Shown here: in pieces, positions 22,688 through 49,973 of the stretch
Layout of the letters: the number at the start of each line of letters is the position of its first letter
Position numbering within the stretch: position 1 is the first letter of the stretch
Assembly (NCBI RefSeq): GCF_001571145.1
Contig: NZ_BCTF01000006.1
Coordinates: 1-64,000, forward strand
Source of the DNA: Hydrogenophaga flava NBRC 102514
Lineage (GTDB): Bacteria; Pseudomonadota; Gammaproteobacteria; Burkholderiales; Burkholderiaceae_C
Length of the DNA stretch: 64,000 nt
Direction of reading: 5' to 3'
Position numbers and translations under genes: made by a program
Notes under the pieces: model-generated
What the model saw: the letters and a program-made list of their open reading frames with translations, nothing else
What the model was told of the DNA's origin: nothing
Databases searched by the model: none

Positions 22688-22714
22688 TTCAGTATTCGCC
22701 GGTCTGTCCGATAG
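22688..22714 (+). promoter_or_regulatory. Possible sigma-28 (FliA) promoter of chemoreceptor gene
   Basis: TTCAGTAT, an 11-base spacer and TCCGATAG resemble the sigma-28 consensus (TAAAGTTT-N11-GCCGATAA). The -10 half is good, the -35 half poor. It lies 38 bases before the chemoreceptor ATG at 22753. Chemoreceptor genes are commonly in the flagellar regulon. Confidence 0.4.
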
Positions 22715-22752
22715 TGGCGATAGCCCGTTTGTCACCTTTCGGAAAAACCGCC

Positions 22753-24708
22753 ATGACCTCTGTTGCCCTGTCTTCCGTGTTTCGGCCAGGCGGCTGGTCC
22801 CTGACCGCCAAGCTGAGCCTGTCCGCTGTGCTGTTGTGTGTGCTTTGCGTTGGAACCACCAGCGCCGTCGTGGGTTTGCAGGCCAGCGACAGGGCCCGCC
22901 AGGCGGCCAGCGACCAGGCCCGTGTGGTGGCCGACCAGGTGGCGGCCCAGATCGGCGGCGAACTCGGTCGCAGCTTTTCCGCCGTGCTCGGCATGGCGGC
23001 CAGCATCGAAGGCATGAAGGCCGAGGGTCACCCGCCCAGCCGCGAGCAGCTCGATGACATGGCCCGCCAGGTGCTGACCCAGCGCAGCGAGTTCATTGGC
23101 ACCTACTCGATCTGGGAGCCGAATGCGCTGGACGGCCGGGACTCGGATTTCGTGAAGAAGGGCCCGGGCTACGACGAGACAGGGCGCTACATCGCCTACT
23201 GGAACCGCGGCAGCGGGCAGATCGCCGTCGAGCCGCTGCTGGACTACGAGAAGGAAGGGTCCAACGACTGGTACGCGATTCCTCGCAAGACGCGCAAGCC
23301 CGCCCTGATCGAGCCCTACGTCTACCCGGTCGCCGGCAAGGACGTGCTCATGACCACCATGGTCACCCCGGTGCTGGTGGGGGGCCAGTTTGTCGCTGCG
23401 GTCGGTTCCGACGTGCCGCTGTCGGATCTGTCCGCGCGGTTGAGCGCGCTGGAACCTGTGCCCGGTGGGCGGGTGTCACTGATCTCCAACGGGGGGCTGT
23501 ACGTGGCCGTGCACGACAAGGCACGCCTGGGTAAGCGGGCCGACGACCTGCCGCCCGAGGCGCTGGCGCGCATCGCCAAGGGCGAGTCCCATGTGTGGGA
23601 CGACGGCCAGGGCTGGATGCACCTGTACGCCCCCGTCACCGTGCAGCAGGGCACGGCGCCCTGGAGCGTGGTGGTCTCCTACCCGCTGGCCGTGGCCGCT
23701 GCTGCCGCCCAGCAGCAGCTCTATGGCGCCGTGGCCGCCGCGGCCGTGGCCTGCGTGCTGGCCGCGGTGCTCATGACGCTGCTGGTGCGCTCGCTGATGA
23801 AGCCGCTGCGCGAACTCGGGCGCACCATGGACGGGCTGGCCTCGGGCAGCACCGACCTGCGCGTCGAGCTGCCGGTGCGGGGGACCGACGAGCTGTCGGT
23901 GATTGCCCAGGGCTTCAACGGATTTGCGCGCAAGCTGCGCAACGCCTTCAGCGAAGTCGGCGACGTCTCGGGTGGCGTGGCCAACGCTTCCAGGGAAATC
24001 GCCACCGGCAACGCCGACCTCTCGGTTCGCACCGAACAGCAGGCTTCACACCTGCAGCAGAGCGCCAGCGCCATGCGCGAACTCACCGACGCCGTGGCCC
24101 ACAGCGCGGAGTCGTCCGACCACGCGGCCCAGCTGGCACGCGAGGCGGTGACCCAGGCGCACAACGGCCAGAACGTGATGCGCGAGACCCGCGACGCCAT
24201 GGACAAGATCAACGAGTCCAGCCGCCGCATCGCCGACATCACCGGCCTGATCGACTCGATCGCGTTCCAGACCAACATTCTGGCCCTGAACGCCGCCGTC
24301 GAGGCGGCACGGGCGGGCGACCAGGGGCGCGGTTTTGCCGTGGTGGCGGGTGAGGTGCGCACGCTGGCACAGCGCAGCGCCACCGCGGCCAAGGACATCC
24401 GCCAGCTCACCGTCGATTCGGTGGACCGCGTGGCTTCCGGCGCGGCGCTGATCCGCCAGGCCGAGGCCTCGCTGAACCACCTGGGTGACGCCGTGCAGCA
24501 GGTCGACCAGCTGCTGTCCGAGGTCAGCCAGGTGACCCGGGAGCAATCGGGCCGCATCCGGTCGGTGACCGACGCCATCGGCGAGATCGACCAGAACACC
24601 CAGCAGAACGCCGCCATCGTGGAGCAGGCGGCGGCTGCAGCCGATTCCCTGCAGCAGCAGTCGGCACGGCTGGTGCAGACCGTGCAGCAGTTCGTGGGGC
24701 AATCGTGA
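22753..24708 (+). CDS. Methyl-accepting chemotaxis protein, dCache sensor
   Basis: A 651-residue chemoreceptor. N-terminal TM helix (SLTAKLSLSAVLLCVLCVGT), a long periplasmic region of about 260 residues with dCache features (TYSIWEPNALDGRD and the WYAIPRKTRKPALIEPYVYP stretch), a second TM rich in Ala/Val, a HAMP domain (MKPLRELGRTMDGLASG) and the cytoplasmic signalling hairpin with the conserved tip IDSIAFQTNILALNAAVEAA. There is no C-terminal CheR/CheB tether pentapeptide. Cache domains of this type often bind amino acids or organic acids; the ligand is unknown. The ATG at 22753 is preferred over an upstream in-frame start because GGAAAA stands before it. Confidence 0.92.
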   Translation: MTSVALSSVFRPGGWSLTAKLSLSAVLLCVLCVGTTSAVVGLQASDRARQAASDQARVVADQVAAQIGGELGRSFSAVLGMAASIEGMKAEGHPPSREQLDDMARQVLTQRSEFIGTYSIWEPNALDGRDSDFVKKGPGYDETGRYIAYWNRGSGQIAVEPLLDYEKEGSNDWYAIPRKTRKPALIEPYVYPVAGKDVLMTTMVTPVLVGGQFVAAVGSDVPLSDLSARLSALEPVPGGRVSLISNGGLYVAVHDKARLGKRADDLPPEALARIAKGESHVWDDGQGWMHLYAPVTVQQGTAPWSVVVSYPLAVAAAAAQQQLYGAVAAAAVACVLAAVLMTLLVRSLMKPLRELGRTMDGLASGSTDLRVELPVRGTDELSVIAQGFNGFARKLRNAFSEVGDVSGGVANASREIATGNADLSVRTEQQASHLQQSASAMRELTDAVAHSAESSDHAAQLAREAVTQAHNGQNVMRETRDAMDKINESSRRIADITGLIDSIAFQTNILALNAAVEAARAGDQGRGFAVVAGEVRTLAQRSATAAKDIRQLTVDSVDRVASGAALIRQAEASLNHLGDAVQQVDQLLSEVSQVTREQSGRIRSVTDAIGEIDQNTQQNAAIVEQAAAAADSLQQQSARLVQTVQQFVGQS

Positions 24709-29667: not shown

Positions 29668-31455
<1,788 letters not shown>

Positions 31456-31478
31456 GCACAACAACAAAGGAACACCAC

Positions 31479-32276
31479 ATGCCGCAATTTGCTGCCAACC
31501 TCTCCATGCTCTGGAACGAGCTGCCCTTCCTCGACCGATTCGACGCCGCGGCGAAGGCCGGTTTCAGGGCCGTGGAGTTCCTGTTTCCCTACGACTTCCA
31601 GGCCGAGGACATCGCCGAGCGCCTGCAGCGCAACCGGCTGCAACTGGTGTTGCACAACCTGCCGCCGGGCGACTGGGCCGCGGGCGAACGCGGCATGGCC
31701 TGCATTCCCGGCCGCGAAGACGAGTTCCGCGCCGGCGTGGCCAAGGCCGCCGCCTACGCGCCGGTGATCGGTGTGCAGCGCTGGCACTGCATGGCCGGCC
31801 TGATGCCCGCGGGCGTGAGCGAGGCGCAGGCGCGCGCCACCTGGGTGGGCAACGTGCGCTACGCGGCTGCCGAAGCGAAGAAGCTGGGGCTGCCGCTGCT
31901 GGTCGAACCCATCAACAGCTTCGACATGCCGGGTTACTTCGTCAACCGCCCGCGCCAGGCCATCGCGCTGATGGACGAGGTCGGTGCGGACAACGTCTTC
32001 CTGCAGTACGACATCTACCACGCGCAGCGCATGGAAGGTGAGCTGAGCAACACCATCAAAGACCTGCTGCCGCGCATCGCCCACATGCAGCTGGCCGACA
32101 CGCCCGGTCGCCACGAGCCTGGGACCGGTGAGATCCACCACCGCAACGTCTTCGACCACATCGACGCGCTGGGCTACAGCGGCTGGATCGGCTGTGAGTA
32201 CAAGCCGAAAGACGGCACGCCGGGCGGCACGGACCGCGGCCTGGGCTGGATCGCGGCCCACCAGCAGACGCTCTGA
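31479..32276 (+). CDS. hyi: Hydroxypyruvate isomerase
   Basis: A 265-residue TIM-barrel enzyme of the xylose-isomerase-like superfamily, normal size. It interconverts hydroxypyruvate and tartronate semialdehyde. Start segment QFAANLSMLWNELPFLDRFD, the metal Glu in LLVEPINSFDMPGYF, and DIYHAQRMEGEL with GCEYKPKDGTPGGT are typical of Hyi. It lies 23 bases after gcl with AAAGGAAC before the ATG. It allows hydroxypyruvate to enter the glycerate pathway. Confidence 0.95.
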   Translation: MPQFAANLSMLWNELPFLDRFDAAAKAGFRAVEFLFPYDFQAEDIAERLQRNRLQLVLHNLPPGDWAAGERGMACIPGREDEFRAGVAKAAAYAPVIGVQRWHCMAGLMPAGVSEAQARATWVGNVRYAAAEAKKLGLPLLVEPINSFDMPGYFVNRPRQAIALMDEVGADNVFLQYDIYHAQRMEGELSNTIKDLLPRIAHMQLADTPGRHEPGTGEIHHRNVFDHIDALGYSGWIGCEYKPKDGTPGGTDRGLGWIAAHQQTL

Positions 32277-32302
32277 ACTGAGCCTTCAAGGAGACAAGAC
32301 AC

Positions 32303-33211
32303 ATGACCAAGAGCGGAACCAAAGTCGGCTTCATCGGCCTGGGCATCATGGGCACGCCCATGGCGCTGAACCTGATCAAGGCGGGGCACATGCTGTTCGT
32401 GTCCAGCCGCAGCAAGATCCCGGCCGAGCTGGCCGAGGCGGGCGCCACGGTCTGCACCAACGCCACCGAGGTGGCCAAGCGCGCCGACGTGGTCATCACC
32501 ATGGTGCCGGACACGCCGCATGTGCAGGACGTGCTGTTCGGCGAAACCGGCGTGGCCAAAGGACTGTCGGCCGGCAAGGTGGTGGTGGACATGAGCTCCA
32601 TCAGCCCGATGGCGACCAAGCAGTTCGCGCAGCAGATCAACGCGCTGGGCTGCGACTACCTCGATGCGCCGGTCAGCGGTGGCGAGGTGGGTGCCAAAGC
32701 GGGCAGCCTGACCATCATGGTCGGCGGCCCTGAAGCGGCCTTCGAGCGCGTCAAGCCGCTGTTCGAGGCCATGGGCAAAAACATCACCCTGGTCGGAGGC
32801 AACGGCGACGGGCAGACCACCAAGGTGGCCAACCAGATCATCGTGGCGCTGAACATCGAAGCCGTGGCCGAGGCCCTGCTGTTCGCCAGCAAGGCCGGCG
32901 CCGACCCTGCCAAGGTGCGCCAGGCGCTGATGGGCGGCTTCGCGGCCAGCCGCATCCTGGAGGTGCACGGCGAGCGCATGGTCAAGCGCACCTTCAACCC
33001 GGGCTTTCGCATCGAGCTGCACCAGAAGGACCTCAACCTCGCGCTGCAGGGCGCGAAGGAGCTGGGCGTGAGCCTGCCGAACACCGCCAGCGCGGCGCAG
33101 CTGATGCAGAGCTGTGCGGCGCATGGCCTCGCTGGTCTCGACCACTCCGCTTTGTGCCGTTCGCTCGAACTCATGGCAAACCACGAGATCGCCCCAGCGC
33201 CGACCGCCTGA
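32303..33211 (+). CDS. glxR: Tartronate semialdehyde reductase (2-hydroxy-3-oxopropionate reductase)
   Basis: A 302-residue beta-hydroxyacid dehydrogenase that reduces tartronate semialdehyde to D-glycerate with NAD(P)H. The Rossmann motif is VGFIGLGIMGTPMALNLIKA, the substrate-binding segment DAPVSGGEVGAKAGSLTIMV, and the catalytic Lys in TTKVANQIIVALN. AAGGAGAC stands before the ATG, 26 bases after hyi. It acts between Gcl and glycerate kinase in the same operon. Confidence 0.95.
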   Translation: MTKSGTKVGFIGLGIMGTPMALNLIKAGHMLFVSSRSKIPAELAEAGATVCTNATEVAKRADVVITMVPDTPHVQDVLFGETGVAKGLSAGKVVVDMSSISPMATKQFAQQINALGCDYLDAPVSGGEVGAKAGSLTIMVGGPEAAFERVKPLFEAMGKNITLVGGNGDGQTTKVANQIIVALNIEAVAEALLFASKAGADPAKVRQALMGGFAASRILEVHGERMVKRTFNPGFRIELHQKDLNLALQGAKELGVSLPNTASAAQLMQSCAAHGLAGLDHSALCRSLELMANHEIAPAPTA

Positions 33212-33234
33212 TGCACCGCTAGACTGCGGCGACG

Positions 33235-34554
33235 ATGACCAAGCCCAACGTGAACGATCCCCGCGCCCTGCTGCGCCACCTGTACGACGTGGCGGTGCAG
33301 CGCGCGCTGCCCTTGCACAACACGGCCGCGCACCTGCCGGCGCTGCCCAAGGGCCGCACGCTTGTGCTGGGGGCTGGCAAGGCGGGTGGGGCGATGGCGC
33401 AGGCGGTCGAGGCCCTGTGGCCAGCCGGCGCGCCGCTGTCGGGCCTGGTGGTCACGCGCTACGGCCACACGCCGCCGCGTCCTGCGGGTCTGGCGCAGCG
33501 CATCGAGGTGGTGGAGGCGGCGCACCCGGTGCCGGATGCGGCGGGTCTTGAGGCCGCGCAGCGCATCCTGGCCCTCACCCAGGGCCTGACCGCAGACGAC
33601 TTGGTGCTGTGCCTGATCTCCGGCGGCGGCTCGTCGCTGCTGACCCTGCCCTGCGAAGGCCTGACGCTGCAAGACAAGCAGCGCATCAACCGGCAGCTGC
33701 TGGAGAGCGGCGCCCACATCGGCGAAATGAATGCTGTGCGCAAGCACCTCTCGCGCATCAAGGGCGGGCGCCTGGCCGCGGCCTGCGCACCGGCGCGGGT
33801 CGTTACGCTGACCATCAGCGATGTGCCCGGCGACGACGTGAGCGTGATCGCCAGCGGGCCGACCGTGGCCGACGCGACGACCTGCGCCGAGGCGCTGGAC
33901 ATCCTGCGCCGCTACGGCATCGACGTGCCGCCCGCGGTGCAAGCACAGCTGGAAAACGGCGCGCTTGAAACCCCCAAGCCCGGCGACCCGCGGCTGGCGC
34001 GTAGCGAGACCCACCTCATCGCCACGCCGCAGCAGAGCCTGGACGCCGCGGCCGAAGCCGCCCGCGCGCTGGGCCTGCGCGCTTATGTGCTGAGCGACGA
34101 GATTGAGGGTGAGTCGCGCGAGGTCGGCAAGGTGCACGGGGCGCTGGCGCGCTCCACCGCGCTGGGCCGCAGCAGCTTCGAAGCACCCTGCGTGATCCTT
34201 AGCGGCGGCGAGACCACGGTGACGGTGCGCCCGCGCGCCGAATGCCAGCCCAAAGGGCGGGGCGGCCGGGCCGGCGAGTTCTGCATGGGCCTGGCGCAGG
34301 CGCTGGGCGGGCAGGCGGATGTGTGGGCGCTGGCGGCGGACACCGACGGCATCGACGGCGTGGAGGACAACGCCGGCGCGCTGGTTGCGCCCGACACGCT
34401 GGCGCGCGCGGCGGCGCAGGGCCTGAAGCTGGCCGACCACCTGGCGCGCAACGACGCGGTTGGTTTCTTCGAACCCCTGGGCGATCTGGTGGTCACCGGC
34501 CCCACGCACACCAACGTCAACGACTTCCGCGCGCTGCTCGTGACCCGGCCGTAG
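33235..34554 (+). CDS. ttuD: Glycerate 2-kinase (MOFRL family)
   Basis: A 439-residue class II glycerate kinase forming 2-phosphoglycerate from glycerate and ATP. The N-terminal DUF4147 domain has LVLGAGKAGGAMAQAVE and LCLISGGGSSLLTLP; the C-terminal MOFRL domain has LSGGETTVTV and the ADTDGIDGVEDNAGALV stretch. The usual name in this gene order is ttuD or gckA. Last gene of the gcl operon. It has no Shine-Dalgarno; TAGACT lies 9 bases before the ATG, so it may also have its own leaderless transcript. Confidence 0.94.
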   Translation: MTKPNVNDPRALLRHLYDVAVQRALPLHNTAAHLPALPKGRTLVLGAGKAGGAMAQAVEALWPAGAPLSGLVVTRYGHTPPRPAGLAQRIEVVEAAHPVPDAAGLEAAQRILALTQGLTADDLVLCLISGGGSSLLTLPCEGLTLQDKQRINRQLLESGAHIGEMNAVRKHLSRIKGGRLAAACAPARVVTLTISDVPGDDVSVIASGPTVADATTCAEALDILRRYGIDVPPAVQAQLENGALETPKPGDPRLARSETHLIATPQQSLDAAAEAARALGLRAYVLSDEIEGESREVGKVHGALARSTALGRSSFEAPCVILSGGETTVTVRPRAECQPKGRGGRAGEFCMGLAQALGGQADVWALAADTDGIDGVEDNAGALVAPDTLARAAAQGLKLADHLARNDAVGFFEPLGDLVVTGPTHTNVNDFRALLVTRP

Positions 34555-37165: not shown

Positions 37166-38710
37166 ATGAAAACTGCGCGGAAATGGTCGGTGATCAACAG
37201 GCTGTACGCCGTTTTTGCACTGACTGGCCTCTTGATCGCAGGACTGCTTGTCATGGGCTACAGCTTGCAGCTGCGCCATCAGAGCACCCTGGATTCGGTG
37301 ATCGATGTGGAGTACAGCCGCATGCGGCAGGTCTCCGAGTGGCAGCTGGTGGCCACAGGAACGACCGTACGGATCGTGGCGATCAACCGGGGTTCCGACC
37401 CTGGTCTGGCGTCTTTGTTCGGTCCCGAGATCGGGCCCCGCATCGAGATCATCGACAAGCACCTGGCCGATATCAAGAAGTGGGCCACGGAGCCGGAACA
37501 ACTTCAGGTTGTTGGCAAGATCGATGCGACCGGACCGCTGATCATGGCGGCGCTCGGAAAAATGGCCAAGAGCCGCGAAGCTGGCGATGCGGACGCAGCA
37601 CTCAAGACCTTCGAGCAGGAGTTCATGCCCCAGGTCGAGGCCTATCACAAGAGCGTCGACGAGTTCGCGGCGCTGCAGGCCAAACGGCTGAATGCCTCCA
37701 TTCGTGAGCAGCAGGCCCGCGAGCAGACGCTCTTCTGGACAGGCAATGTGGTCGTGCTGGTTCTTGTGGTCCTGGCTGGTGTGCTCATGGTGCGTCTGGC
37801 GCAGCACATCAAGGCGCGCCTGCGGGAGTCTGTCGAGCAGGCCCATGCGGTCGCCGCGGGCGACCTCACGGTGCGATCCCGCTACCGTGGTGGCGACGAG
37901 TTCGGCGTGCTGATGCAGTCCATGGACGCGATGGCGGAGGGACTGGGCTCGGTGGTTCGCAACGTGCGCCAGGGCAGCGACCAGATTACGGGCGCATCCA
38001 GCGAAATCGCCCAAGGCAACCAGGACCTTTCAGAACGCACCGAGCGCCAGGCCAGCCATCTGCAGCAGACCTCCGGAACCATGGAGCAGCTCACCGATGC
38101 CGTGCGCCACACCGCCGACAACGCGCGTGAGGCATCCAGGCTGGCGACCGATGCCAGCGAAATCGCCCACCGCGGCGGCGAGGTGGTGGGGCGCGTGGTG
38201 GAGACCATGACGCAGATCCAGCAGTCGTCCGGGCGCATTGGAGAAATCACCGGCGTGATCGACAGCATCTCGTTCCAGACCAACATCCTGGCGCTCAATG
38301 CCGCTGTGGAAGCGGCGCGTGCGGGCGAACAGGGCCGTGGTTTTGCCGTGGTGGCGGCGGAGGTCCGCACCCTGGCCCAACGCTCCGCTTCGGCGGCCAG
38401 GGAGATCAAGGAGCTGATTGCCGACTCTTCCGACAAGGTGCGCGCGGGCGGAGAGCAGGTGAACGCAGCAGGGCAGACCATGTTCGAGCTGGTCTCTTCC
38501 GTGAAGAAGGTCACGGGCCTGATCGAAGACATCAGCCGGTCGGCCGAGGAACAGCGCAACGGCATTTCGGAAGTCAGCCGGTCCGTGGCCGAAATCGACC
38601 AGTCCACGCAACAGAACGCCGCGTTGGTCGAGCAGGCGGCGGCCGCGGCGGGGGCGATGAGGGAACAGGCGCGCCATCTCGACCAGGTGGTCAAGACCTT
38701 CCGGATCTGA
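37166..38710 (+). CDS. Methyl-accepting chemotaxis protein, four-helix-bundle sensor
   Basis: A 514-residue chemoreceptor: TM1 at about 13-33 (LTGLLIAGLLVMGYS), a periplasmic region of about 155 residues with the helical content of a 4HB_MCP sensor, TM2 at about 188-210 (VVVLVLVVLAGVLMVRLAQH), HAMP (ESVEQAHAVAAGDLTVRS) and the signalling hairpin with the tip IDSISFQTNILALNAAVEAA. It lacks a C-terminal CheR-binding pentapeptide. CCGGAGAC precedes the ATG, and a sigma-28 promoter lies upstream. Ligand unknown; 4HB sensors commonly detect amino acids or small organic acids. Confidence 0.92.
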   Translation: MKTARKWSVINRLYAVFALTGLLIAGLLVMGYSLQLRHQSTLDSVIDVEYSRMRQVSEWQLVATGTTVRIVAINRGSDPGLASLFGPEIGPRIEIIDKHLADIKKWATEPEQLQVVGKIDATGPLIMAALGKMAKSREAGDADAALKTFEQEFMPQVEAYHKSVDEFAALQAKRLNASIREQQAREQTLFWTGNVVVLVLVVLAGVLMVRLAQHIKARLRESVEQAHAVAAGDLTVRSRYRGGDEFGVLMQSMDAMAEGLGSVVRNVRQGSDQITGASSEIAQGNQDLSERTERQASHLQQTSGTMEQLTDAVRHTADNAREASRLATDASEIAHRGGEVVGRVVETMTQIQQSSGRIGEITGVIDSISFQTNILALNAAVEAARAGEQGRGFAVVAAEVRTLAQRSASAAREIKELIADSSDKVRAGGEQVNAAGQTMFELVSSVKKVTGLIEDISRSAEEQRNGISEVSRSVAEIDQSTQQNAALVEQAAAAAGAMREQARHLDQVVKTFRI

Positions 38711-38925: not shown

Positions 38926-39645
38926 TTGCGCAGTTCCTTCCACCACGCTGCTCCTTCTGCCCTGGCGCGCCAGCTTGCGCGAGCGCTGCCCGCGGGCGCG
39001 TCGCCCGACGCGCCGCGGCAGGACGTGGCCGAGCGCCTGGGTGGGTGGCTCAACGTGGCCGAGACCATCCAGCTGCACGCCGCACAGGCGGCGATCGAGG
39101 CGGCCGGTGCGGCGGCCGCCCGCCGCCCGCCCCGCACCGGGCCGGCGGCACTGCACGCCACGCTGAGTGCCGAGCTCGACCGTGTGCGCGCCGTGCTGAC
39201 CCGCTCCATCACCACCGCGCCGGCCCACAAGCCCGATCCGAACGACCTCGACACCGAGTTCGCGCTGTTCCACCAGCGGCTGGGCGACCAGCAGCGCCGC
39301 ATGGAGATGAGCATCGACGCGCTGCGCGAGCACGTGCGCCAGCAGCTGGCCCAGTCCACGCCGGCCATGGCGCAGCTGGCCGCCACCGACGCCGTGATGG
39401 ACGGCTTCTTCGGTGGGCGTGAGCAGCGCCTGCTGTCCACCCTGCCGGCCTTTCTGAAAGCGCGCTTTGCGGCGCTGCGCCGCGAAGCGGCCCAGGCCCG
39501 TGAATCCGACGCGCCCGACACACCCGACGACCTGCGCTGGCTGCAGACCTTCGCGGCCGAGTTCGAGCAGACCCTGCTCGCCGAACTCGACCTGCGCCTG
39601 CAGCCCGTGACCGGCCTGATCGAAGCCCTTGCCCATGAGCACTGA
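38926..39645 (+). CDS. DUF3348 family protein
   Basis: A 239-residue soluble protein. The N-terminal ALARQLARALPAG, then DVAERLGGWLNVAETIQLHA, matches the DUF3348 family as I know it from Burkholderiales; the C-terminal half is alpha-helical. There is no signal peptide or TM segment, so it is cytoplasmic. The start is taken at TTG 38926 because no ATG or GTG fits the family N-terminus; this is the least certain start in the cluster. It overlaps the DUF802 gene by 11 bases and is the first of four coupled genes. Function unknown; presumed partner of the motor-like membrane complex. Confidence 0.8.
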   Translation: MRSSFHHAAPSALARQLARALPAGASPDAPRQDVAERLGGWLNVAETIQLHAAQAAIEAAGAAAARRPPRTGPAALHATLSAELDRVRAVLTRSITTAPAHKPDPNDLDTEFALFHQRLGDQQRRMEMSIDALREHVRQQLAQSTPAMAQLAATDAVMDGFFGGREQRLLSTLPAFLKARFAALRREAAQARESDAPDTPDDLRWLQTFAAEFEQTLLAELDLRLQPVTGLIEALAHEH

Positions 39646-41920
39646 AACCTCCACTTCCCGTCCTTACCGCGCACTGTCGTTTTTGGCCTTCATCGTGGGC
39701 CTGGCCGCCGTCGCCTGGGTGGCCAGCGGCTTCGTCGGCAGCAGCGCCTTCGCGCTGGGCATGACGCTGCTGATCGGCGCCGTCTACCTGGGCGGCGCCT
39801 GGGAGCTGCGCCGCTTCGGCCAGACCACCGCCGCACTGCACACGGCCATGGCCGGCGTGCCGCAGCCCCTGGCCCAGCTGGCCGACTGGCTGCCCAGCGT
39901 GCCCGCGCCGCTGCGCCACGCGGTGCGCCAGCGCATCGAAGGCGAACGCAGCGCCTTTCCGGGCCTGGCGCTCACGCCCTACCTGATCGGCCTGCTGGTC
40001 ATGCTGGGCATGCTCGGCACCTTCCTGGGCATGGTGGTCACCTTCAAGGGCGCCGTGTTCGCGCTCGAAGGCTCGGCCGATCTGAACGCCATCCGCGCTG
40101 CGCTGGCCGCGCCCATCAAGGGCCTGGGCCTGTCCTTCGGCACCTCGGTGGCGGGTGTCGCCACCTCGGCCATGCTCGGCCTCATGGCGACGCTGGCGCG
40201 GCGCGAGCGCGCCCAGGCCCAGCGCACGCTGGACGCACTGGCCGCCACCACGCTGCGCCCCTTCTCGGCCGCGCACCAGCGCCAGCAGAGTTTTGAGGCC
40301 CTGCAGCGCCAGGCCGAGGCCCTGCCCGCGGCCGCGCAGCACCTGCAGACGCTCATCGAGCAGGTCGAGCGCCGCAGCCAGCAGCTGGACGAGGCCCTGC
40401 TGGCCCGCCAGGCCGAGTTCCAGCGCGAAGCCGCTGCTGCCTACACCGGGCTGGCGAAGTCGGTGGAACAGTCGCTGCGCGAGAGTCTGGCCGCCAGCGC
40501 CCGCGCCGCCACCGACAGCCTGCAGCCCGTGGTGCAGCAGGCCATGGCCGGCATCGCCGCCGAGTCCAGCCGCCTGCACGAGGGCGTGAACGCCGCGGTA
40601 CAGGCCCAGCTCGAAGGCCTGTCGGCCCGCTTCAGCGCCACCACCGCCACGGTGGCCGACACCTGGACCCGTGCGCTGGACCGGCACGAGCAGGGCAGCC
40701 AGCAGCTGCTGCAAGGCCTGGGCGAGTCGCTCACCGCCTTCAACAGCGGCTTCGACCAGCGCGCCGGCCAACTGCTGGCCAGCGTGCAGGCTGCACAGAC
40801 TGAGGCCCAGACCCTGCGCGCCCAGGCCGAACAGCAGCAACAGGCTGCGCTCACCGGGGCGCTGGAGCGCATGGCGCAGGACCTGCGCCACCAGTGGCAG
40901 CAGGCCGGCGACCAGACACTCGCGCAGCAGCGCGCCTTGCTGCAGGCGCTGCAAGACACCGCCACCCGCCTCACGCAGCACAGCAGCGAGCAGACCGACC
41001 GCAGCCTGGACGGTGTGGCCCGCCTCATCGCGCAGACCGAGGCCCTGGTGCAAGCGCGCACCGCCAGCGAAGCCGCGTGGACCCAGCAGCACGCCCAGCG
41101 CATGGACGAGCTGGCCGCGCTGTGGCGCAGCGAACTGGCTGCCCTGCACGAGGCCGAGCTGCAGCGCCAGCAGGCCCGGTCCGAACAGCAGGGCCAGGCC
41201 TTCAGCGCCCTTTCGCGGCAGTTGCAGACCCTGCGCGACGAGGAGGCCGCGCGCGGCGATGCCGCCGTGCAGCGCCTGGCCGATCTGCAGGCCGCGCTGG
41301 CGACCCAGCTCGCCACCCTGGGCACGGCGCTGGAAGCACCCATGGCCCGCCTGATGCAGACCGCGTCCGAAGCGCCCAAGGCCGCGGCCGAGGTGATCGG
41401 CCAGCTGCGCGAGCAGATGAGCCGCCTGGCCGAACGCGACAACGCCACGCTGGGCGAGCGCGCCGAGCTGGTGGGCCAGATCGGCACCCTGCTGCAGCAG
41501 GTGCAGCAGACCACGGGCGAGCAGCGCGCCGCCATCGAACACCTGGTCGGATCGGCCACCGGCGTGCTCGACCGCGTGGGCCAGCAGTTCGCCGACACCG
41601 TGGGTGCGCAGGCCGGCCGCGCCGAGGCCATGGCCGAACAGGCCGCCACCAGTGCGGCCCAGCTGGTCAGCCTGGGCGAGGCCTTCCAGCAGGGCACGCA
41701 GCAGTTGGCCGCCAGCCACGAGCAGCTGGTGCAGAACCTGCAGAAGGTCGAGAGCGCCATCGGCCAGTCGCTGGCGCGCAGCGACGAGCAGCTCGCCTAC
41801 TACGTGGCGCAGGCGCGCGAGGTCATCGACCTCTCCATCAGCGCGCAGCAGGGCATCGTGGAAGACCTGCGCAAGCTGCGCGGGCCGGTCGCCAAGGCCG
41901 CTGCAGGGGCCCTTGCATGA
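39635..41920 (+). CDS. DUF802 protein: ExbB/MotA-like membrane base with long helical tail
   Basis: A 761-residue protein. TM segments lie at about 14-34 and 38-57, then, after a loop, at about 112-135 (LIGLLVMLGMLGTFLGMVV) and 160-185 (LGLSFGTSVAGVATSAMLGL); the GMLGTFLGM and GTSVAGVATS patterns are those of the proton-channel helices of the MotA/TolQ/ExbB superfamily. From about residue 200 to the end it is an almost uninterrupted Ala/Gln/Glu-rich coiled-coil tail of some 560 residues. This layout resembles ZorA of the Zorya defence system. It overlaps the DUF3348 gene by 11 bases and the MotB-like gene by 4. Function unknown. Confidence 0.85.
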   Translation: MSTETSTSRPYRALSFLAFIVGLAAVAWVASGFVGSSAFALGMTLLIGAVYLGGAWELRRFGQTTAALHTAMAGVPQPLAQLADWLPSVPAPLRHAVRQRIEGERSAFPGLALTPYLIGLLVMLGMLGTFLGMVVTFKGAVFALEGSADLNAIRAALAAPIKGLGLSFGTSVAGVATSAMLGLMATLARRERAQAQRTLDALAATTLRPFSAAHQRQQSFEALQRQAEALPAAAQHLQTLIEQVERRSQQLDEALLARQAEFQREAAAAYTGLAKSVEQSLRESLAASARAATDSLQPVVQQAMAGIAAESSRLHEGVNAAVQAQLEGLSARFSATTATVADTWTRALDRHEQGSQQLLQGLGESLTAFNSGFDQRAGQLLASVQAAQTEAQTLRAQAEQQQQAALTGALERMAQDLRHQWQQAGDQTLAQQRALLQALQDTATRLTQHSSEQTDRSLDGVARLIAQTEALVQARTASEAAWTQQHAQRMDELAALWRSELAALHEAELQRQQARSEQQGQAFSALSRQLQTLRDEEAARGDAAVQRLADLQAALATQLATLGTALEAPMARLMQTASEAPKAAAEVIGQLREQMSRLAERDNATLGERAELVGQIGTLLQQVQQTTGEQRAAIEHLVGSATGVLDRVGQQFADTVGAQAGRAEAMAEQAATSAAQLVSLGEAFQQGTQQLAASHEQLVQNLQKVESAIGQSLARSDEQLAYYVAQAREVIDLSISAQQGIVEDLRKLRGPVAKAAAGALA

Positions 41921-42612
41921 GTGCCTTCCACGACACCGCCGAGGAGCACCTGGCCGACGGCGACGACAGCGCCGAAATGACGGCGCCGGTCTGGGCCGTG
42001 TTCGGCGACCTCATGGCCGGTCTGGTTGGCGCTTTCGTGCTGGTCTTCATCGGCGTGCTGCTCACCCAGGTGGATCTGGTCAACAGCCTGCAGAGCGAGA
42101 TCGCCAAGCGCCAGCAGGAAGAGGCCCGCCGCATGGCGCTGGAAAAGGCGCTGGCCGTGCCGCTGGCCAGCGGCCGCGTCACGCTCAACAACGGCCGCAT
42201 CGGCATCAGCGGCAGCGTGCTGTTCGACTTCAACTCCGACCAGCTGCGCCCCGAAGGCGAACAGCTGCTCAAGGCCCTGGTGCCGCCGCTGCAGGTCTAT
42301 CTTGGCGAGCGCGACGAGATGCTCATGGTCAGTGGCTTCACCGACAACAAGACCGTGGTCAAGGGGCCCAGCCAGCGCTACGAAGACAACCTCGAACTAT
42401 CGGCCCAGCGTGCGCTCACCGTCACGCGGGCGCTGATCACCAGCGGCATGCCGCGCTCGCGCGTGTTTGCCGCCGCCTTCGGCGCCGAACAGCCCGTGGC
42501 CAGCAACGCCGACGAACAGGGCCGGGCGCTCAACCGCCGCGTGGAAATGGCGCCGGTGCCGCGCGCCAGCGCCGCCGCGGGAGACGCCGGAACACCGGCC
42601 GTCCGACCCTGA
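41917..42612 (+). CDS. MotB/ZorB-like protein with OmpA peptidoglycan-binding domain
   Basis: A 231-residue protein: cytoplasmic N-terminus, one TM helix (about 28-50, DLMAGLVGAFVLVFIGVLL), a short linker, and a C-terminal OmpA-like domain (about 85-215, SGSVLFDFNSDQLRPEGEQL, then RALNRRVEM). Asp31 opens the TM helix at the place of the MotB proton-binding aspartate (Asp32 in E. coli MotB), so it can form an ion-driven stator with the DUF802 protein, anchored to peptidoglycan. Its ATG overlaps the DUF802 stop. Flagellar MotB itself is unlikely because motA is absent and the partner is DUF802. Confidence 0.9.
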   Translation: MSAFHDTAEEHLADGDDSAEMTAPVWAVFGDLMAGLVGAFVLVFIGVLLTQVDLVNSLQSEIAKRQQEEARRMALEKALAVPLASGRVTLNNGRIGISGSVLFDFNSDQLRPEGEQLLKALVPPLQVYLGERDEMLMVSGFTDNKTVVKGPSQRYEDNLELSAQRALTVTRALITSGMPRSRVFAAAFGAEQPVASNADEQGRALNRRVEMAPVPRASAAAGDAGTPAVRP

Positions 42613-42614
42613 CG

Positions 42615-43019
42615 ATGAAGCCGTCTGCCCTGCGACCCGCGCCCCTGGCCGAGCTCAATGCCCACATCGAGCGCGCGTCGGCCGCCGCGCGCGACGGGGT
42701 GGTCGGCGGCGGTGGCCCCTGGCCCGAACTGCGCAGCGCGCAGCGCTTTCGCGAAACCTGGGAGCGCATCGGCGCCGAGGTGCAGGTGCAGCGTGCGCTG
42801 GACCGCGCCCCGCCCAACGCCGGCCCGCTCAACCCCCAGCGCCTGATGCTGGAGACCCTGGCCCGCATGGGCGATCTTTCACCGCACTACCTGCGCCGTT
42901 TCCTGACCCATACCGAGACCCTGCTCTGGCTGGAGCAGGCGCATGGCTTGCTCCGGTCGCCCACGGCGGGCAAGGGCGGGGCGGGCAAGCCGGCGAAAGC
43001 CGGCCGCAAGAAGGCCTGA
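42615..43019 (+). CDS. DUF2894 family protein
   Basis: A 134-residue soluble protein. LNPQRLMLETLARMGDLSPH and the following YLRRFLTHTETLLWLEQAHG are the family core; the C-terminus is a basic Gly/Lys tail (GKGGAGKPAKAGRKK). It seems short for the family, whose members usually have a longer N-terminal part. It starts 2 bases after the MotB-like stop, so it is the fourth gene of the DUF3348-DUF802-MotB unit. The basic tail could bind nucleic acid or acidic lipid; that is inference. Function unknown. Confidence 0.82.
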   Translation: MKPSALRPAPLAELNAHIERASAAARDGVVGGGGPWPELRSAQRFRETWERIGAEVQVQRALDRAPPNAGPLNPQRLMLETLARMGDLSPHYLRRFLTHTETLLWLEQAHGLLRSPTAGKGGAGKPAKAGRKKA

Positions 43020-48237: not shown

Positions 48238-49008
48238 TCAGCGGCGGATGCGCCGGCCCGTCTTGAACACCCACCAGACCACGCTCAGGCAGGCGGCCAT
48301 GAAGACCAGCGTCATGCCGGTGCTGATGGCGATGTGCACGTCGGCCTGGCCGTAGAAGGCCCAGCGCAGTCCGCTGATGAGGTAGACCACCGGATTGAAT
48401 AGCGAGACGGTCTGCCAGGGTTCGGGCAGCATGTTGATGCTGTAGAACGCACCGCCGAGGAACGTGAGTGGCGTGATCACCAGCAGCGGGATCACCTGCA
48501 GCTTCTGGAAGCTGTCGGCCCACAGGCCGATGATGAAGCCGAACAGGCAGAACGAGACCACCGTCAGCAGCAGGAAACCGACCATCCACACCGGGTGGGC
48601 GATGTGGTAGGGCACGAAGAAGCGCGCGGTGAGCAGGATCAGCGTGCCCAGCAGCAGGCTCTTGCTGGCGGCCGCGCCCACGTAGCCCAGCAGCACCTCG
48701 ACCCAGTTCACCGGCGCGCTCAGCAACTCGTAGATGGTGCCCGACCACTTGGGCATGTAGATGCCGAAAGAGGCGTTGGAGATGCTCTCGGACAGCAGCG
48801 AGAGCATGAGCAGGCCGGGGATGATGTAGGCGCCGTAGTCCACACCGCCGATGTCGCCCATGCGCGATCCGATGGCCGTGCCGAAGACGATGAAGTAGAG
48901 CGAGGTGGTGAGCACCGGCGCGATGATGCTCTGCGCCCAGGTGCGGAAGGCGCGGTTCATCTCGAACATGTAGATGGCGCGCACGGCGTGGATGTTCAGA
49001 CCCGTCAT
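48238..49008 (-). CDS. yadH: ABC-2 type exporter permease
   Basis: A 256-residue inner-membrane protein with six TM segments, typical of YadH/NodJ-like ABC-2 permeases. The conserved [20 protein letters not shown] start and [19 protein letters not shown] before TM5 are diagnostic. It pairs with the ATPase at 49011-49973, whose stop lies 2 bases upstream of this gene's start, to form a two-subunit export pump. The substrate of YadGH-type pumps is not established. Normal length. Confidence 0.9.
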
Positions 49009-49010
49009 GC

Positions 49011-49973
<963 letters not shown>

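Follow-up and report, generated by a model that had tools for sequence, protein, structure and literature searches.

The window analysed here, i.e. the whole 64-kb stretch from Hydrogenophaga flava NBRC 102514, carries a Zorya-type locus consisting of four contiguous genes on the + strand (positions 38926-43019). By protein and DNA comparison, its nearest relatives reside in Hydrogenophaga, the closest being H. pseudoflava. The genes and the features within them are the following (E values are given for profile matches):

38926-39645, + strand: DUF3348 gene (ZorF in the papers, ZorG3 in PADLOC-DB), 239 amino acids; Pfam PF11828 7.8e-51, PADLOC ZorG3 1e-56; predicted to be all-helical, likely an adaptor
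39635-41920, + strand: ZorA3, MotA/ExbB/TolQ-like, 761 amino acids; PADLOC ZorA3 9.6e-246, NCBIfam ZorA_2 1.8e-6, the latter below the model cut-off
39659-40618, + strand: ZorA head and proximal tail, conserved and of near-fixed length, with channel motifs LGMLGTF and FGTS
40619-41338, + strand: ZorA tail spacer, length-elastic, hydrophobic period 3.64; starts with the DUF802 stretch (40619-40777)
41339-41878, + strand: ZorA tail tip, conserved, with motif RSDEQLAYYVAQARE at 41777-41821
41917-42612, + strand: ZorB3, MotB/OmpA-like, 231 amino acids, one membrane helix; PADLOC ZorB3 2.7e-102, Pfam OmpA 1.1e-17
42007-42009, + strand: predicted ion-carrying Asp31 of ZorB3, by alignment with 8VVN_B
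42220-42537, + strand: predicted peptidoglycan-binding OmpA domain of ZorB3 (Pfam OmpA 1.1e-17)
42615-43019, + strand: DUF2894 gene (ZorG in the papers, ZorF3 in PADLOC-DB), 134 amino acids; Pfam PF11445 1.3e-27, PADLOC ZorF3 1.3e-35

The names ZorF and ZorG are swapped between sources, DUF3348 being ZorF and DUF2894 being ZorG in the papers and the opposite in PADLOC-DB; we therefore use the family names. The DUF3348 gene was called from a TTG codon and its true start is uncertain. A preceding sequence-only reading of this DNA had described all four genes as overlapping. This applies to the first three, which overlap by 11 bases (DUF3348/ZorA) and 4 bases (ZorA/ZorB), but not to ZorB and the DUF2894 gene, which are separated by 2 bases. 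The four-gene order on one strand is kept in 99/100 loci of relatives and in 20/20 additional loci, and therefore the gene set is not a product of chance. All compared loci were retrieved via DUF3348, so that copies without this gene would escape. The single exception, locus L042 (G052:C12:101500-121000), has DUF3348 and a truncated ZorA, whereas ZorB and DUF2894 are missing; no other of the 100 loci is built in this way. A location in a defence island, which the same reading had considered, was not evident.

Judged by profiles and gene order, the four genes almost certainly represent a Zorya type III locus. The features of this type are all present: ZorA3, ZorB3 with its Asp residue and OmpA domain, and a ZorAB pair flanked by the DUF3348 and DUF2894 genes. 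Zorya type III was defined in 2021 from 6,401 loci, with DUF3348 and DUF2894 as two extra genes, and in the portions of that paper considered here the four components, their order and strand, and the gene content are the same as in our locus (PMC8565338). In E. coli BL21-AI, a copy from Stenotrophomonas nitritireducens reduced plating for one or more of the phages tested (PMC8565338); it is for this copy that anti-phage activity has been published. The locus is a typical member of an already known system. Hence, the sequence-only statement that no function had been described for the four-gene set is superseded, and a reading as an undescribed system is ruled out by the PADLOC profiles together with PMC8565338. 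Its companion observation, a layout resembling ZorA-ZorB with DUF3348 and DUF2894 as the other partners, was confirmed by PADLOC type III profiles on all four proteins. The ZorAB complexes of types I and II have been solved as 5:2 motors, in which the ZorA tail, the flow of ions and the binding of peptidoglycan are of importance; in the portions of this study considered, type III is named in the introduction and in the distribution survey, and the experiments described there do not include it (PMC11890865). The corresponding portions of PMC12505986 and PMC9148166 contain nothing further on type III.

The locus was also compared with better characterized relatives. With type I (ZorABCD; 8VVN, Shewanella ANA-3), our locus shares the aligned ion-carrying Asp of ZorB, the ZorA channel motifs and a long ZorA tail, whereas neither the four genes nor the 10 neighbours scanned match ZorC or ZorD, and the partner proteins match other profiles. 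Concerning type II (ZorABE; 8VVI), the NCBIfam model ZorA_2 matches 43/67 Hydrogenophaga genomes weakly and 0/67 over its cut-off; where their position was compared (four rows: G000, G014, G048, G053), the matches coincide with the gene for ZorA3. No ZorE HNH nickase was found among the four genes and the 10 neighbours. A MotA-like channel, a MotB-like helix and an OmpA domain are also common to the flagellar MotAB stator, but the ZorA tail is very long in our case and the best matches in the defence library are ZorA3 and ZorB3. No flagellar, Tol or TonB gene was seen among the 10 neighbours that were scanned, but these include two chemoreceptor genes of the window.

The proposal of a stator-type, proton- or ion-driven membrane pair was well founded, as the motor residues are present and the ZorA3 and ZorB3 profiles match. 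When residues 9-78 of ZorB were compared with the PDB, only two matches were obtained up to E 5, which are the ZorB proteins of 8VVN (E 0.0035) and 8QYD (E 0.5). In this alignment Asp31 corresponds to Asp24 of 8VVN_B, the critical Asp of type I ZorB according to the structure paper (PMC11890865, in part). The ion-carrying Asp is conserved in 99/99 ZorB proteins, and a simple OmpA-type peptidoglycan motif is found in 95/99. On the side of ZorA, the motif LGM/LLGTF occurs in 98/100 loci and a strict FGTSVAG-type pattern in 62/100, F and S of the latter being invariant among 31 aligned heads. The channel fold was addressed by sequence comparison: a profile of these 31 heads retrieved type I ZorA (8VVN_C) as the best of 177,635 distinct PDB sequences, but the match is weak (E 0.016). 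Pfam and NCBIfam scans reported no MotA family for ZorA, and the MotB models stayed far below their cut-offs on ZorB. The earlier designation of DUF802 as the ExbB/MotA-like membrane protein was mistaken. The Pfam DUF802 match (3.1e-16) covers residues 329-381 only, a 53-residue stretch that opens the tail spacer and is not the channel. Residue conservation, together with the structures known for type I, predicts that ZorA and ZorB very likely form an ion-driven motor, which ZorB would tie to the peptidoglycan.

The most distinctive part of the locus is the ZorA tail. Among 79 ZorA proteins aligned (of 81; in two the head could not be matched usefully), the median head length is 320 residues, with deviations of more than 5 in 11/79. 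The tip measures 174-186 residues in 74/79 and is more than 6 off in 5/79, one of which is the truncated L042. Motif RSDEQLAYYVAQARE (two positions with one alternative each) is present in 79/100 loci, and SDEQL/M in 92/100, located there 37-74 residues before the C-terminus. In between, the spacer ranges from 58 to 412 residues in Hydrogenophaga and from 91 to 531 in other genera, and it changes rapidly: lengths differ in 26/39 Hydrogenophaga pairs whose RpoB proteins are less than 2% different. No internal repeat of at least 30 residues at 40% identity was detected in the 79 ZorA proteins, and growth of the spacer via recent internal duplication was rejected.

Despite this elasticity, the lengths keep a helical phase. 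As head-to-tip length we took the distance between the FGTS and SDEQ motifs, each located with a small profile, which succeeded in 98/100 loci (range 360-840), and phase was tested on distinct lengths so that copies count once. In Hydrogenophaga, the lengths lock to a period of 3.64 residues (39 loci, 24 distinct lengths, R 0.897, Rayleigh p 4e-9). The same period was obtained in other genera (59 loci, 37 distinct lengths, R 0.632, p 4e-7) and with both sets combined (58 distinct lengths, R 0.695, p 7e-13). In a jitter control, 0/2000 sets reached the observed R for Hydrogenophaga, for the other genera or for both combined. Neither the heptad period of 3.5, nor 3.6, nor the hendecad period of 11/3 accounts for the lock (R 0.12, 0.11 and 0.22 for the 58 distinct lengths), and spacer lengths are not locked to multiples of 7 or of 11. 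The control lengths showed no lock, namely those of DUF3348 (38 distinct), DUF2894 (23) or ZorB (only 7). Subsequently, 20 later loci were evaluated with the period fixed beforehand at 3.64. Their 12 distinct lengths gave R 0.667, a value reached by 24/5000 jittered sets, and a phase of -0.08 turn as compared to -0.10 and -0.01 for the earlier sets. For all 118 loci with 67 distinct lengths (331-840 residues) R is 0.680. As a separate measure, the hydrophobic pattern of the spacer also peaks at 3.64, with little power at 3.5 or 3.6. Type I ZorA, looked for as a comparison for the tail, was found in 4/369 genomes, a number too small for this purpose. Because the tail length is phase-locked, the tail is probably one unbroken, nearly straight coiled rod extending from the membrane to the tip.

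Next to the motor stand the two proteins particular to type III. The AlphaFold2 model of DUF3348 (mean predicted local distance difference test score, pLDDT, of 85) comprises nine helices and no strands. It has no fold match in the PDB at E<=0.001, and the search for structural kin yielded nothing beyond generic helical bundles. DUF2894 is small and basic (median isoelectric point 10.6), with a Lys/Ala/Pro-rich tail whose last 25 residues are positively charged in 96/99 relatives; its model is helical, but of low confidence (pLDDT 65). Judged by this charge, DUF2894 is likely a DNA-binding protein. Pfam, NCBIfam and PADLOC profiles detected no nuclease or helicase family on the four proteins. 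Moreover, when 100 rows were aligned, the positions with at least 90% conservation comprised neither acids nor histidines in DUF2894, and three acids but no histidine in DUF3348. By sequence and model, neither protein looks like a nuclease. Co-divergence was assessed by partial correlations (77/79 sequences). The value for DUF3348 and DUF2894 (0.50) is similar to that of the ZorA head and ZorB (0.46), a known contact, and DUF3348 correlates with the tip at 0.26 versus 0.08 with the head.

From these data the following scheme emerges. ZorA, arranged around ZorB in the inner membrane, would form an ion-driven motor anchored to the peptidoglycan via ZorB, and the ZorA tail would reach inward from the motor as a continuous coiled rod. 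DUF3348 and DUF2894 may bind each other and sit at the tail tip, as suggested by their co-divergence. The basic tail of DUF2894 would then hold or block phage DNA. Because of this basic charge, and because nuclease families, folds or conserved catalytic residues are lacking, DNA would be held rather than cut. The trigger might be damage inflicted by the phage on the envelope, a notion borrowed from the published model for types I and II. We consider the scheme as a whole, i.e. an ion-driven ZorAB motor whose tail carries DUF3348-DUF2894 at the tip and seizes phage DNA uncut, to have about an even chance of being correct. Its final part taken alone, the pair at the tip and the DNA held without cutting, is proposed tentatively and judged somewhat short of even. 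Whether the motor turns is another matter: a nuclease-free rotary defence machine, resident and near-core in whole genera, in which a pentameric, phase-locked ZorA shaft of elastic length turns a DUF3348-DUF2894 head and thereby winds or jams phage DNA, appears possible but doubtful.

Several observations speak against this scheme or weaken its parts. The phase lock indicates a continuous coil and not rotation, because any coiled coil requires in-phase insertions and deletions to fold. Distinct lengths are not phylogenetically independent. When the period was left free for the 20 later loci, 354/2000 jittered sets performed equally well or better. Fourteen of these loci come from outside the family and provide 6 distinct lengths, a number too low for a decision; their peak lies at 3.85, and for 3.64 they yield R 0.545, reached by 896/5000 jittered sets. 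In the spacer, hydrophobicity also has much power at 3.667, and along the rod the hydrophobic period varies, from 3.72 in the proximal part via 3.64 in the spacer to 3.58 in the tip. Since this period is not uniform, the rod is slightly less sure. Concerning the partner proteins, the tip-minus-head difference for DUF3348 is not significant (95% interval -0.07 to 0.40), and a comparison of 46 close relatives did reveal some conserved acids and histidines in DUF2894. As the DUF2894 model is poor, a divergent active site may exist in this protein. Finally, a host nuclease could supply the cutting, in line with the nuclease recruitment proposed for all subtypes (PMC11890865, in part).

The distribution of the system bears on its role. 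DUF3348 was detected in 50/67 Hydrogenophaga genomes and in 39/44 good ones, with one locus each; in G042 this locus lies in two pieces on two contigs. By the same method rpoB was found in 53/67 (41/44 good), HsdR in 42/67 (30/44 good) with at most 5 matches each, and Cas1 in 7/67 (5/44 good) with mostly weak matches. Thus, Zorya III is nearly as universal as rpoB in this genus. In the host family it is patchy (133/388 good genomes, 46/126 genera), and in the phylum 23/397 genomes pass the cut-off, all in the same class. A gene for a glycerate kinase (window positions 33235-34554, MOFRL) lies within 9 genes upstream on the same strand in 25/41 Hydrogenophaga loci and in 0/40 loci of other genera, a count affected by contig ends that cut some loci. 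Of the 17 Hydrogenophaga genomes without the system, 11 were searched, and 10 have the kinase gene. Nine of these sites were fetched, two of which end at contig ends, and none contains Zorya genes. In G022, G036, G045 and G017, the gene that flanks the locus downstream in the window starts within ~100 bases of the kinase gene, and in G033, G009 and G060 a gene of this kind follows after 0.5 to ~3 kb of unannotated DNA. Six genomes that lack the system but have rpoB could be placed on the RpoB tree; they require four changes, some nested among carriers, which reads as loss.

Within Hydrogenophaga, Zorya distances follow RpoB distances (Mantel r 0.648, 33 genomes, 0/5000 permutations); outside the genus the relation is weak (r 0.283, 30 genomes, 3/5000). 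The Zorya proteins are ~6x more divergent than RpoB (0.301 vs 0.048). Hydrogenophaga does not form one clade in the Zorya tree (approximately unbiased (AU) test, p 0.034), and clean vertical descent is not supported in view of this result and of the kinase site, which is unshared in the 40 loci of other genera. The closest Zorya relative of locus L103 (G135), which belongs to a different genus of the family, lies within Hydrogenophaga (L045 of G043); this likely reflects transfer between genera. At least two flanking genes are shared by 231/780 Hydrogenophaga pairs, by 10/15, 7/10 and 6/6 pairs in three other genera, by 6/15 and 1/10 in two more, and by 0/7 in the last five. Since flanks are common to only part of the same-genus pairs, a fixed address in every genus is excluded. 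No neighbouring gene cluster is common to more than 4/40 other-genus loci, so that nothing points to a fifth component. The system was found on 27/72,556 plasmids, which are large replicons of 0.37-3.5 Mb, none of them typed as conjugative. It is absent from 50,697 phage records, and two peptide patterns retrieved no viral contig. Type III is not exceptional in being rare on plasmids, as a type I ZorA query matched 1/72,556; HsdR of a sister species was found on 725 plasmids, 436 of them conjugative. A mobile defence island in Hydrogenophaga is not supported, the plasmid argument being weakened by the rarity of type I.

Other modes of action have to be weighed against the proposed seizing of uncut DNA. 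The activated ZorA tail might gather a DNA cutter, with DUF3348 or DUF2894 acting as an unrecognised nuclease or with a nuclease provided by the host. The type II protein ZorE is a nickase, and sensing followed by nuclease recruitment was suggested for all subtypes (PMC11890865, in part); the few acids and histidines kept in DUF2894 of the close relatives would fit as well. We nevertheless regard this model as unlikely, given that no nuclease or helicase family was found on the four proteins, that the highly conserved positions include no acid or histidine in DUF2894 and three acids only in DUF3348, that the model of DUF3348 is all-helical, and that the neighbourhoods in other genera hint at no additional gene. 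A pure ion leak, in which DUF3348 and DUF2894 gate ZorAB and opening upon infection depolarises the cell (abortive infection), would assign the partners the role of regulators proposed in the portions of PMC8565338 considered. It agrees with the conserved channel residues and with the lack of an effector domain in Pfam and PADLOC scans. However, depolarisation was not seen for types I and II (PMC11890865, in part), and a leak would not explain why the tail, at 331-840 residues, stays in helical phase and ends in a conserved tip, which makes this model rather improbable.

A different possibility is that the locus encodes a resident envelope machine acting on the cell wall or on envelope DNA in uninfected cells, phage resistance being a side effect of overexpression. 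Its presence as a single locus in nearly as many good Hydrogenophaga genomes as rpoB (39/44 vs 41/44), the correlation of its divergence with that of RpoB in the genus, the absence of a convincing defence gene among the 10 neighbours, and the lack of phage records and conjugative plasmids with the system are all compatible with such a role. It is opposed by the published plaque reduction (PMC8565338, in part), by the patchiness in the family, by the four presence changes on the genus tree, which lie partly inside carrier clades, by the apparent exchange between some genera, and by the ~6-fold higher divergence relative to RpoB; moreover, rarity on plasmids is no special mark in view of the single plasmid with type I ZorA. 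On balance, we rate such an envelope machine as quite improbable.

Among the 10 neighbour proteins scanned there is no convincing defence gene. The ATPase of an ATP-binding cassette transporter pair downstream (48238-49973) matches PADLOC mad3 (1.7e-33) and other ATPase models, and a chemoreceptor matches PADLOC JetC at 9e-4; both are probably cross-matches of large families. The two methyl-accepting chemotaxis receptors are encoded at 22714-24708 and 37166-38710, the second adjoining the Zorya locus upstream, which is rarely the case in relatives. Positions 31452-34554 carry xylose-isomerase-like, hydroxyisobutyrate/tartronate-reductase-like and MOFRL glycerate kinase genes, likely of glyoxylate metabolism; in Hydrogenophaga, no gene is found upstream of the Zorya locus more often than the last one of this run.

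As far as the available text portions and titles show, three aspects are new for Zorya III: the evolutionary indication that its tail, which ends in a conserved tip, is an unbroken rod whose length is free but phase-locked, the missing nuclease signs in its two special proteins, and the near-core residence in Hydrogenophaga. The portions of PMC8565338 considered mention neither an elastic tail nor its phase lock, nor do they describe the system as near-universal within a genus. Among the titles listed in a literature search that lacked most subscription journals, none concerned the type III tail, the nuclease question of DUF3348/DUF2894 or near-core residence.

Zorya clearly exemplifies the use of a flagellar-type motor in immunity. 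The 67 distinct type III tail lengths in 118 loci, which keep one helical phase, provide natural length variants of this tail. A type III system without a recognisable nuclease tests the claim that all Zorya types recruit a nuclease. Finally, the near-core status in Hydrogenophaga indicates that a profile-based defence label can mark resident genes, which matters when mobile defence islands are counted.

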